Both the position numbers and the translations under genes were made by a program. 64,000 nt of DNA from Gemmataceae bacterium. Its GTDB lineage: Bacteria; Planctomycetota; Planctomycetia; Gemmatales; Gemmataceae. Under the pieces are notes generated by a model, which made no database searches, was not told where the DNA came from, and saw only the letters and a program-made list of their open reading frames with translations. Shown here piece by piece: positions 42,833 through 51,026 of the stretch (positions within the stretch are counted from its first letter, which is position 1; every line of letters starts with the position of its first letter). The stretch is from assembly GCA_901538445.1 (NCBI GenBank), contig LR594584.1, positions 4,309,006 through 4,373,005 of the forward strand, read 5' to 3'.

Positions 42833-43270
42833 TTACGCGTTCGGGTCGTCGGTCAGCGCAATGGACACCACGACCAGGTCGGTGCGTTCGCGCCCGCCGA
42901 CACGTTTCCAGAACGCCATCCCGTCGGCGTTCCCGGTCGTCACCCAGAAGTTCACCTTGTCAATCCCCTCGGCCTTGAGCGCCGCGAGGCAGTGTTCGAC
43001 CAACCGGCGGCCGGTGCCCTGCTTGCGGAGCGCCGGCGACACCGCGAGGTGGTGCAGGTACCCGCGGCGGCCGTCGTGCCCCGCGAGGCACGCGCCCGCG
43101 AGTTCGCCGGCCGCGGTCAGCGCCACGAAGCTGCACCCGGGGTTGCGCCGGAGGTAGCGCGCGAGGGCCGGCGGGCTGTCCGCGCCGCGGAGGCACATTC
43201 CCTCGACCACTTGCCACAGTGCGAGCGCCGCCGGTATGTCAGCCTCCACCATCGGCCGGAGCGTGACCAT
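42833..43270 (-). CDS. GNAT-family N-acetyltransferase
   Basis: 145 residues from ATG 43268-43270. GNAT landmarks: MVTLRPMVEADIPAALALW at the start, FVALTAAGELAGACLAGHDGRRGYLHHLAVSPALRKQGTGRRLVEHCLAAL (motif A with the acetyl-CoA Q/RxxGxG/A loop, here RKQGTG) and KVNFWVTTGNADGMAFWKRVGG. The substrate is unknown. Start codons of this gene and the diverging kinase gene are 21 bases apart. Confidence 0.88.
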   Translation of the reverse strand: MVTLRPMVEADIPAALALWQVVEGMCLRGADSPPALARYLRRNPGCSFVALTAAGELAGACLAGHDGRRGYLHHLAVSPALRKQGTGRRLVEHCLAALKAEGIDKVNFWVTTGNADGMAFWKRVGGRERTDLVVVSIALTDDPNA

Positions 43271-43291
43271 CACCGCAACCCCGAGAGACCC

Positions 43292-44218
43292 ATGCCCGCC
43301 GCCACGTGTGTGATTTACAACCCGGCGGCCGGCCGCGGGAGGGCCGAAAGGCTGCTCGCCGAGGTCCGCGCCGCCCACGGCGGTGAGATCGAACTCCGAG
43401 CGTCGCGCGAGCCGGGTCACGCGGTCGCGTTGGGGCGCGACGCGGCGACCGAGGGGTTCGCGAGGGTCGTCGCGGCCGGCGGCGACGGCACCGTTCACGA
43501 GGTCGCCAACGGCGTCTTGCAGAGCGACCGCCGCGACACCGTGTTCGGCGTGTGGCCCATCGGGTCTGCCAACGACTACGCCTACTCGCTCGGAATGGAC
43601 GTGTGGTGGAAGCGCCGCGGCGAGCGGCTCCCGACCGAGGTGATGGAAGTCGATGTCGGGCGCGTCACCGCCGGCGGCCGCGAGCGGTTCGTGTTGTGCT
43701 GCCTGGGCGTCGGGTTTAACGGCATGGTGACCGTCGAGGCCCGCAAGACGCAGTGGCTCGCCGGGATGCCGCTGTACGCCCTCGCGTTTCTCAAGGCGAT
43801 GGTGCGGCACTTCGCGACGCCGACGATGACCGTGCGGTTCGACGGCCGCGAAGTCGTCACACCCACGCTCGCGCTCTCAGTCTTGAACGCACAGCGGGAG
43901 GGCAACTTCCCGCTGCGGCCGGCGGCACGGCTCGACGACGGCGCGTTCGACTACATGCACGCCACCCGGCTCCGCCGCGGCCACCTGCTCCGCTACCTGC
44001 CCGCGATGGCCACGGGCCGCTTGCCCGAGAACCACCGGCTCATCACGCTCGGCCGCGCGAGCCGGATCGCGGTCCGCAGCGGAGTTCCGCTGTGCGTCCA
44101 CGCCGACGGCGAGTTCGTGTGCGTCCCCGAGGAGGGCGTCACCGAGATCGCGCTCGACGTCGTCCCGCGGCGGCTCCGGGTCGAGGTGTTCCCGCCCGCG
44201 CGGTACGGCGCACGGTGA
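43292..44218 (+). CDS. Diacylglycerol / lipid kinase family protein
   Basis: 308 residues from ATG 43292. The DAGK catalytic domain has VIYNPAAGRGRAERL at the start, VVAAGGDGTVHEVANGV (nucleotide-binding GGDGT) and VWPIGSANDYAYSLGM (usually GTGNDFA). The C-terminal beta-sandwich has LNAQREGNFPLRPAARLDDG. The GSAND in place of GTGND is a conservative change. It probably phosphorylates a lipid alcohol such as diacylglycerol. The 3' end is partly duplicated at 46309-46547. Confidence 0.88.
   Translation: MPAATCVIYNPAAGRGRAERLLAEVRAAHGGEIELRASREPGHAVALGRDAATEGFARVVAAGGDGTVHEVANGVLQSDRRDTVFGVWPIGSANDYAYSLGMDVWWKRRGERLPTEVMEVDVGRVTAGGRERFVLCCLGVGFNGMVTVEARKTQWLAGMPLYALAFLKAMVRHFATPTMTVRFDGREVVTPTLALSVLNAQREGNFPLRPAARLDDGAFDYMHATRLRRGHLLRYLPAMATGRLPENHRLITLGRASRIAVRSGVPLCVHADGEFVCVPEEGVTEIALDVVPRRLRVEVFPPARYGAR
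43972..44214 (+). repeat. Direct repeat, original copy (3' end of the kinase gene)
   Basis: About 240 bases, from CCGCCGCGGCCACCTGCTCC to GGTACGGCGCACG, highly similar to 46309-46547 in the same orientation, with the membrane-protein gene in between. Confidence 0.85.
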
Positions 44219-44248
44219 ACCGCTCAGCGGCCGCCGCGGCACCTGCGG

Positions 44249-46308: not shown

Positions 46309-46568
46309 CCGCCGCGGCCACCTGCTCCTTTCTCCCGGCCATGGCCACGGGCCGGCTCCCCGAGAACCACCGACTCATCACGCACGGCCGCGCGAGCCGG
46401 ATCGCGGTCCGCAGCGCGTCCCCGCTGTGCGTCCACGCCGACGGCGAGTTCGTGTGCGTCCCCGAAGAGGGCGTCGCCGAGATCGCGCTCGACGTCGTCC
46501 CGCGCAGGCTCCGGGTCGAGGTGTTCGCGCCCGCGCGGTACGGCGCACGAGGGGCCGGTCCCGGGTAA
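46309..46568 (+). pseudogene. Duplicated 3' fragment of the diacylglycerol-kinase gene
   Basis: From 46309 to 46547 the DNA repeats the last 240 bases of the gene at 43292-44218, in frame: MATGRLPENHRLITHGRASR and CVHADGEFVCVPEEGVAEI match with few changes. The original stop codon is missing, so the frame runs on to 46566-46568. There is no catalytic domain and no independent function is expected. Confidence 0.85.
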
Positions 46569-46652
46569 GGTCGCCGGACCAAACGGTGTGTCTGATCGGG
46601 GTGGGCACCGGGGTTCTGGTCGGATGTCCCCACCCCTCGCGGAGTGCGCACC

Positions 46653-48041
46653 GTGCGATGCCTGCTGTTCGGCGTGTTCTCGATCCTCGCCGCGGCCCCC
46701 ACGGCCGGTGCCGCGGACCCGGCCCCCAAACCCAACATCGTCGTCATCCTCGCGGACGACATCGGCTGGGCCGACCTCGGGTGCTTCGGCCAGAAGACGC
46801 TCGCGACCCCGAACCTGGACCGGATGGCGAAGGAGGGGATGCGGCTCACCCAGTTCTACGCGGGCGGGGCCACCGGCGGCCCGTCGCGGCGCGTCATGCT
46901 CACGGGCCGGCACGGGGGCCGGGCGGCCACCCCGGACCAGCCGACGGTGGCGTCGCTGCTGAAGAAGGAGGGGTACGCGACGGCGTGCGTGGGGCAGTGG
47001 GGGCTGGGGCCGGTGGGCAAGCTCACCGCGCCCAACGACGCGGGGTTCGACCACTTCTTCGGGGCGCTCAACGCGCCGCACGCCAACAACCCGTACCCGG
47101 AGTTCCTCGTCCGCAACGGCAAGGTCGTGCCGCTGAAGAACGAGGCCGCCGCGGAGTGGAAGAAGTGGCAGGACCCGGCGCTGCCGGACGGCGGCCGGGG
47201 CGTGGCGGCGAAGAAGGGCAACTACGCCCCCGCCCTGCTCCTCGACGACGCCCTCGGGTTCGTCCGCGAGCACCGGAAGGGGCCGTTTTTCCTCTACCTG
47301 CCCCTCACGGTCCCGCACGCCAACGCCGCGGCCGGCGAGAACGGGCTGGAGGTGCCGGACCCCGGCGAGTTCGCCGCGAAGGACTGGCCGGCCGCCGAGA
47401 AGGGGTTCGCCGCCCAGGTGCGGGCAATGGACCGGGACGTCGGCCGGGTGCTCGACCTGCTCAGGGAACTCAAGATCGACAGGGACACGCTGGTGCTGTT
47501 CGCGTCCGACAACGGGCCGCACACCGAGTGCGGGCACAAGCCCGAGTTCTTCCAGTCCACGGGCAAGATGCGCGGCACGAAGGGGGAACTGTTCGAGGGG
47601 AGCATCCGGGTGCCGGCGGTCGCGTGGTGGCCGGGCACGGTCGCCCCGGGCACCGAGAACAACCTCCAGTGGTACGCCGGCGACCTGCCGGCGACCGCGG
47701 CCGAACTGGCCGGGGTGCCTACGCCCGCCGGGCTGGACAGCGACAGCCTCGTCCCGATGCTCAAGGGCCGCGAGGAGAAGGACCAGTGGAAGCGGAAGAG
47801 CCCGCTGTACTGGGAGACCTCCGAGGGGCCGACGGCCCAGGCGGTCCGGTTCGGCAAGTGGAAGGCGATCCGCTCGCCGGTCGGCACCGGGGAACTCGTG
47901 CTCTACGACATGTCGAACGACACCGCGGAGAAGCGGGACTACTCGAAGCGCCGCCCGGACCTGGCGAAGCACGCCCTCAATCTGCTCGACAAGAACCGCG
48001 CGCCGGACCCGAACCGGAAGGGGCCGGAGCCGGCGAAGTAA
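46653..48041 (+). CDS. Sulfatase-family protein lacking the formylglycine-precursor residue
   Basis: 462 residues from GTG 46653, which has GGAG 8 bases upstream; GTG 46644 is the alternative. Signal peptide MRCLLFGVFSILAAAPTAGA. The alkaline-phosphatase-like sulfatase fold is clear: NIVVILADDIGWADLGCFGQ, TPNLDRMAKEGMRLTQFYAGG, then GGPSRRVMLTGRHGG, VGQWGLG, LFASDNGPH, RGTKGELFEGSIRVP. The catalytic C/S-x-P-x-R reads GGPSR, so the Cys or Ser that becomes formylglycine is Gly75 (codon GGC, 46875-46877). Metal-site residues (DD, DNGPH) remain. It is probably inactive as a sulfatase unless it has another role. Confidence 0.9.
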   Translation: MRCLLFGVFSILAAAPTAGAADPAPKPNIVVILADDIGWADLGCFGQKTLATPNLDRMAKEGMRLTQFYAGGATGGPSRRVMLTGRHGGRAATPDQPTVASLLKKEGYATACVGQWGLGPVGKLTAPNDAGFDHFFGALNAPHANNPYPEFLVRNGKVVPLKNEAAAEWKKWQDPALPDGGRGVAAKKGNYAPALLLDDALGFVREHRKGPFFLYLPLTVPHANAAAGENGLEVPDPGEFAAKDWPAAEKGFAAQVRAMDRDVGRVLDLLRELKIDRDTLVLFASDNGPHTECGHKPEFFQSTGKMRGTKGELFEGSIRVPAVAWWPGTVAPGTENNLQWYAGDLPATAAELAGVPTPAGLDSDSLVPMLKGREEKDQWKRKSPLYWETSEGPTAQAVRFGKWKAIRSPVGTGELVLYDMSNDTAEKRDYSKRRPDLAKHALNLLDKNRAPDPNRKGPEPAK

Positions 48042-49637: not shown

Positions 49638-51026
49638 TCACTTCTTCGCATCAATGCGGTACAGCGAATCGACGCTGCGGACGAACAGGGCACCGTCGGC
49701 CGCCGCGGGGGTGGCCCAGTACGTGTCGGCGTCGAGCTTGTTGACGCGGATGACCTCGAACTCGTCGCCGGCCTTCAGCACGTGCGTCGCGCCGGTCGCG
49801 TCGAGGCAGAACACCTGACCGTCGGCCCCCCACGGGGACGCCCAGAACGCGCCCGCACCGGGGATCCGCTCGCTCTTGTACGCGGCCTTCCCTGTCTTCG
49901 CGTCGAAGCAACTCACCAGCCCGCCGTTGCGCTCCAGCACGTACACGCGGCCGTCATACACCAGCGGCGACGCGGCCCCCGGCCACGCCCGCGGCGCGGC
50001 CCAGGCGACCCCGTCGCTGGCGGTCTCGCCCGCCTTCGGGGTGACATCGCCGGTCGCCCCGGCCTTTACGGCGAAGAGGGTGCCGGCGGCGCGGCCCACG
50101 CCTGCACCGCCCCCGCCGCCCTTCCCGCCCTGTCCGACGCCGACGTAGAGCCGCTCGGCGTCCCCCACCGGCGACGCCGAGCACTGCCCGCCGCCGACGT
50201 CCAGCTCCCACACGACCTTGCCCCCGGACGGGTCGTACCCGCGGATCTTCCGCCCCCCCACGGCGACGATGTCGGTGCGGTCCTTCGTCTTTCACACGAA
50301 CGGCGTGCTCCACCCGGACCGCTCGGCCCGGTCGGTGCGCCACAGTTCCTTGCCCGTCTTCTTGTCGAGCGCGACGAGGAACGACTTCTCCTCGTTGTCG
50401 CACTGGACGACGAGCCGGTCGCCGTCCAGCACCGGGGAACTGGCGGTGCCCCACCCGGCCTGCATCGGGTACGAGCCGAGGTCCTTGGACCACACCAGCT
50501 TCCCGTCGAGGTCGTAGCAGTACAGCCCGGTCATCCCGAAGTACGCGTACACCCGCTCGCCGTCGGTGACCGGGGTCTCGGTGGCGTAGGTGTTGCTCCC
50601 GTGCGTCGGGATGGTGGGGACCGCCTCCTTCGCCACCTTCTCCCACAGCGGCTTGCCGGTCGCGCGGTCGAGGCACACGACCTTGAACTGGTACATTGCC
50701 TTGGGGGCACCCTTGCCCCCGCCGAACCCGCCCTTCCCCCCGCCGAACCCGCCACCGCCTCCCTGGGGCTTCGGCTGGCCGGGGGACACCGCGGTGGTGA
50801 CGATCACCTTGTCCCCGACGACGATGGGGCACGACCAGGCGACGCCGGGCACCGCCACCTTCCACGCGACGTTCTTGCCCTTCCCCCACTCGACCGGCGG
50901 CCGCGCGTCGGTGAACACGCCGGTGCCGCCCGGCCCCCGGAACTGCGGCGAGTCCCCGGCCGGGCCGGTCTGGGCGAAGAGCGGGAGCAGCACGGCGAGT
51001 GCGAGCAGCGGTCGGAATCGTCGCAT
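49638..51026 (-). pseudogene. PQQ-like beta-propeller protein interrupted by an in-frame TGA
   Basis: The frame from ATG 51024-51026 to the stop at 49638 has 462 codons, broken only by TGA at 50292-50294 (codon 245). Before it: signal peptide MRRFRPLLALAVLLPLFAQT, then QFRGPGGTGVFTD, CLDRATGKPLWEK, VYAYFGMTGLYCYDLDGKLVWSKDLG and RAERSGWSTPFV. After it the same frame continues KTKDRTDIVAVGGRKIRGYDPSGGK and TYWATPAAADGALFVRS. A Trp would be expected at the TGA (STPFVW-K), so it is a TGG-to-TGA nonsense change or a sequencing error. These proteins are secreted propellers of unknown ligand. Confidence 0.8.

Follow-up and report, generated by a model that had tools for sequence, protein, structure and literature searches.

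A gene in a 64,000-nucleotide stretch of a Gemmataceae genome (the whole stretch that was analysed, hereafter the window) encodes a sulfatase-fold protein in which Gly stands where the nucleophile Cys would be. We are highly confident that this protein has no catalytic activity of the S1 sulfatase type and that selection maintains it. The explanation that we favour, and consider probable, is that it is a clade-conserved pseudosulfatase derived from an S1_20-like carbohydrate sulfatase and most likely serves as a non-catalytic binding or structural protein. For a ligand-binding role specifically our expectation is more guarded and falls a little short of even. The S1 mechanism requires formylglycine, which cannot form without Cys or Ser, and because both the nucleophile and the active-site Lys are missing the protein is unable to act as an S1 sulfatase. 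The review PMC10154612 sets out that S1 sulfatases make formylglycine from Cys or Ser and that their catalytic acid is a conserved Lys or His.

Results

The open reading frame spans 46644-48041 (plus strand, as are the coordinates of its residues below), is full-length with zero internal stops and encodes 465 aa from a GTG start. The first-pass annotation had begun the gene at 46653, which is a second GTG in the same frame; we take the frame from 46644. PF00884 matches residues 30-358 of the protein at 166 bits (cut-off 25), the C-terminal family SGSH_C is also matched, and the AlphaFold model has a sulfatase fold with a mean pLDDT of 93.3 and a Z of 46 to solved sulfatases. Residues 1-24 read by eye as a Sec-type signal sequence, and the protein is probably secreted. 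Only this signal-like sequence precedes the sulfatase domain, which starts at about residue 28, with no N-terminal membrane domain.

We compared the clade, made up of the window gene and three same-genus orthologues, with 77 aligned homologues outside it in an 81-row alignment. Duplicates or same-region repeats (L031, L025, L075, L034, L016 and L029) were left out, as were L058 (N), L103 and L108 (in-frame stop), L123 (overlong), L112 (partial) and all rows not returned by a stricter search. The signature of the window protein is T77-G78-G79-P80-S81-R82, in agreement with the GGPSR initially reported in place of C/S-x-P-x-R. G78 (GGC, 46875..46877) lies at the nucleophile position in an intact sulfatase-fold frame. 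Gly is found there in 3/3 readable clade members and in 0/77 homologues outside the clade, a contrast beyond chance; all 77 have Cys, so that the Cys or Ser expected at this position of C/S-x-P/A-x-R in S1 sulfatases is absent from the window gene and two further orthologues. Ser, a known alternative precursor, occupies the nucleophile position in L121, L141 and L144, relatives from Bacteroidota that are not among the 77.

The metal ligands and the rest of the signature had been described as intact, and this holds for D38 D39 (46755..46760; invariant in the 77 homologues and in 3/3 readable clade members), D289 N290 (47508..47513) and P80 S81 R82 (46881..46889), all retained in the alignment. 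D38, D39, D289, N290, R82 and K313 are present in all readable clade members. It does not hold for the wider active site. Q118 (CAG, 46995..46997) stands at the invariant Lys of GKWG (K in 77/77; Q/Q/Q/R in the clade, R being in L033), and the active-site Lys of the S1 GKW motif is thus missing. N148 (AAC, 47085..47087) replaces the invariant His of HAHN (H in 77/77; N/N/N/R in the clade) and aligns with a His of the S1_20 structures 7ana and 7an1 that is probably the one recognizing O4 of galactose. Recognition of galactose O4 by a His is described for S1_20 in part of PMC10154612; the window protein has Asn and L033 has Arg in its place. H225 (47316..47318), an active-site His, is retained in the window protein but is Arg in one of the four clade members (L033). 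K313, the second active-site Lys, is also kept, with R314 next to it changed to Gly (47580..47585; Gly in 4/4 clade members, Arg in 71/77 homologues), and S320 (47601..47603) occupies a position that is Gly in all 77 homologues and Ser in three of the four clade members. In addition, about 15 residues including a near-invariant RGN are deleted at the junction 46931..46932, according to the alignments in the window gene only.

Among 42 columns that are invariant in the 77 homologues the clade differs at five (78, 118, 148, 225 and 320), with no metal ligand among them, and 37/42 are unchanged in every readable clade member. At the 71 columns that are 95% conserved, each clade member shows 6-9 departures, whereas the six nearest active genes show 0-1 and none of the 77 more than five. 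Three of the five changed columns fall in a set of nine presumed catalytic and metal positions (hypergeometric P = 0.057; P = 0.008 with the sugar-recognizing His added), a clustering that is only suggestive. Beyond that His, the positions are presumed equivalent to those that serve catalysis and metal binding in human arylsulfatase A. As a further candidate sign of inactivity we considered the Gly at the position where many sulfatases have the His of GKWH (GQWG here) and rejected it: the whole subfamily has Gly there, active members included, and the residue is therefore uninformative.

Searches covered 59 relatives and 95 family, 102 order, 397 class and 392 phylum genomes (the sets overlap). 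At E <= 1e-135 they returned close relatives in six genomes: G006, G011 and G014, which belong to the genus of the window and show 74-80% identity, G035 from another genus (67%), G324 (63%) and G458 (58%). A scan of GTDB genome contigs added further relatives in Verrucomicrobiota and Planctomycetota at 55-65%, and plasmid-borne relatives were found as short pieces only. Counting the window genome itself, 4/19 genomes searched in the genus carry the gene, and none of the four clade matches contains a stop codon. In a tree of 30 proteins the four same-genus genes form one clade with support of 100/100, the active gene of G035 is its sister (94/90), and the clade is not on longer end branches than the six nearest active relatives (0.12-0.25 for both). 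At E <= 1e-135 no genome of the 397 in the class set has more than a single match; the close subgroup is thus single copy, and there is hence no active in-paralogue for the window gene to pair with. Separately, the sulfatase frame of the nearest active relative, L076 in G035, is 1005 aa long, a single open frame fused to about 500 further residues from another region that look hydrolase-like by eye.

The first-pass annotation had offered two alternatives, a pseudo-enzyme or a freshly inactivated gene, and had noted that one change from TGC to GGC would explain the Gly. A fresh mutation, or a sequencing error in the window genome, has in its favour that these codons are a single base apart, but Gly occurs in three separate assemblies and is encoded by three different codons (GGC in the window gene, GGG in G006 and GGT in G014), which rules this reading out, and purifying selection is seen on the window branch as on each other end branch of the clade; we leave it practically no probability. 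Position 78 of G011 is unreadable, given that the contig begins about ten residues past it, and all three same-genus clade members that can be read share the Gly. The nearest relative with Cys, in G035, belongs to another genus and is 67% identical, so it is not the case that the close orthologues all have Cys. Nor does any single base change explain the state of the gene, since Lys, His and other conserved residues, invariant active-site positions among them, have also been lost. The shared Gly and the further catalytic losses bear out the pseudo-enzyme alternative.

The clade is under purifying selection. In a codon model of 439 codons from ten genes, omega is 0.0435 on the background branches (active relatives) and 0.091 in the clade, and lnL falls by 260 units, from -8659.9 to -8919.8, when clade omega is set to 1. 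For the individual end branches, omega = 1 is rejected by 17.7 lnL units (window gene), 7.8 (L035), 46.3 (L032) and 14.6 (L033). Each end branch carries much synonymous change (about 0.4-1.0) and clade GC3 is 0.94-0.98; with third positions this diverged and this GC-rich, the dS and omega values are rough. Amino acids are more conserved than third positions in every within-clade pair. As clade omega is twice the background value, constraint is relaxed about twofold, yet it is still strong.

This relaxation is one reason to consider slow decay, in which the ancestral loss of activity relaxed the constraint and the gene is becoming a pseudogene in each lineage. The presence of the gene in so few genomes of the genus is in keeping with such decay, as are the lineage-specific losses, the deletion of the RGN loop in the window gene and H225R in L033, which could be read as decay that is continuing. 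However, omega is 0.09 for the clade and no end branch comes anywhere near 1, the four frames are open without stops, and the 37 invariant columns are retained in every readable member. We therefore regard slow decay as unlikely, although it is the strongest of the alternatives to a conserved pseudosulfatase.

The closest solved structures, both by sequence and by fold, are 7ana/7anb and 7an1; by fold, 7anb (Z 46.3) and 7an1 (Z 45.4) are the best, over 404-406 residues. According to parts of PMC10154620, 7ana/7anb and 7an1/7oqd are BT1622 and BT1636, sulfatases of Bacteroides thetaiotaomicron from the SulfAtlas subfamily S1_20. The window protein shares with them the whole fold, the metal-binding Asp-Asp and Asp-Asn pairs, the signature Pro and Arg, and a GxW motif with Gly or Ala at the His position of GKWH. 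Unlike them, it is without the Cys/Ser nucleophile, the active-site Lys and the galactose-recognizing His, and the clade has Thr or Ser directly ahead of the missing Cys. Nearer still is an active sister group from Planctomycetota and Verrucomicrobiota (L076, identical with L034, and L077, L090, L078, L079, L080, L158 and L169), whose members match the window protein in tblastn at 54.9-65.0% identity; the model of L077 has the same fold, and the six members tested adjoin the clade in the tree. In contrast to the clade, all eight of these distinct outgroup genes of the subgroup have Cys, Lys and His.

Residue 77 raises the question of a new hydrolase or transferase in which the nucleophile has shifted from Cys78 to Thr/Ser77 with the metal retained. 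T77 (ACC, 46872..46874) is Val in 76/77 homologues and Thr/Ser/Thr in the three readable clade members, R82 and K313 persist along with the metal ligands, and Thr serves as nucleophile in LtaS, EptA and YejM/PbgA, which have the same broad fold and functions other than sulfate hydrolysis. These proteins are anchored in the membrane and carry Thr either at the nucleophile position or next to it, whereas the window protein has a plain signal sequence and G78, with its Thr one residue earlier. If the shift were real, a formylglycine sulfatase would have become an enzyme that depends on metal and Thr/Ser and attacks a different ester (for example a phosphate or surface-polymer ester), and the replacement of Lys118 and the sugar-recognizing His would be part of the switch. 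For Klebsiella YejM, the authors suggest in a portion of PMC7576196 that Thr301 may compensate for the lost nucleophile Thr302, a compensation of this kind. But the exchange of Val for Thr is mild, residue 77 in the AlphaFold model just precedes a helix that starts at 78 so that its side chain may point away, and Lys118 and His148 are gone. A shifted nucleophile thus seems to us quite improbable. Poorer still are the chances that some sulfatase activity persists with a metal-activated water standing in for formylglycine, which we judge very unlikely: the metal ligands, R82, H225 and K313 are retained, but the sugar His has gone along with the nucleophile and Lys118, and the S1 mechanism requires formylglycine.

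The genome (7.86 Mb in four contigs) contains 40 PF00884 matches, some of which are fragments. By our reading, seven of 42 readable rows are truncated copies from overlapping loci, leaving 35 genes, and three more matches are unreadable. Of these 35 readable sulfatase genes 34 have Cys and the window gene alone has Gly, so that no widespread loss of the nucleophile is seen in the genome. Eight PF03781 matches, two of them at 282-283 bits, are candidates for the formylglycine-generating enzyme and bear only on the other sulfatases of the genome; together with the 34/35 genes with Cys they indicate that sulfatase chemistry as such has not been lost.

Discussion

The evidence is best accounted for by a conserved pseudosulfatase. 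Its starting point was a single-copy S1_20-like sulfatase gene in a Planctomycetota/Verrucomicrobiota subgroup. The nucleophile Cys was lost in the ancestor of the four same-genus species (parallel loss is a formal alternative, and one of the four is unreadable at this position), and the active-site Lys and sugar-recognizing His were lost in the same clade. Since then, purifying selection has preserved the open reading frame together with the fold and the metal ligands. The protein is presumably exported, would fold around its metal and would have a non-catalytic function. Most likely its remodelled pocket binds a ligand, such as an anion, a glycan or a surface polymer, or it is a structural or partner protein at the cell surface. 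Binding of sulfated glycans, as originally proposed, is plausible only in part: R82, H225, K313 and the metal ligands remain at the sulfate site, but the galactose-recognizing His of S1_20 and the neighbouring Arg are lost, which makes the old substrate doubtful. A sulfatase can bind its substrate in the crystal even when the nucleophile has been changed, judging by the title of PDB entry 6psm (C77S with kappa-neocarrabiose).

Much work has been done on pseudoenzymes of the kinase family, while in open-licence papers we found no naturally conserved inactive S1 sulfatase or pseudosulfatase. A count of sulfatases in planctomycete genomes includes only genes with the active-site motif (PMC4807772), and another genome survey refers to bona fide FGly-sulfatases (PMC6388578). 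Pseudosulfatases may thus be under-reported rather than rare; motif-based counts omit them by design, and family searches alone would name them sulfatases. With a close active relative at 61-67% identity to the clade, the purpose of a dead sulfatase becomes directly testable.

In the window, the neighbours of the gene include a membrane protein without a Pfam match, a flavoprotein (UbiX-like by eye), a response regulator, a GDSL lipase and a BNR-repeat protein. In the 10-20 kb loci around the three orthologues and L076 we found none of the 12 other window genes tested, and with no neighbour common to the orthologues the context gives no pointer to a partner or ligand. The G014 orthologue (L157, 11176-18537) lies beside five sulfatase genes on the opposite strand, all with the nucleophile Cys; the window gene is solitary, with no such adjoining sulfatase genes. 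Just upstream of it, 46332-46560 is a 229-base, 90% identical copy of 43997-44225, the 3' end of a YegS-type lipid kinase gene (42992-44218). On the minus strand, a PQQ/BamB-type beta-propeller gene at 49638-51026 has one in-frame stop near 50292-50294, with both halves open in the same frame. Elsewhere in the genome, two sulfatase frames on different contigs, L164 (G000 C2:497500-500000) and L027 (around G000 C1:117978-119072), are identical over their last 100 residues.
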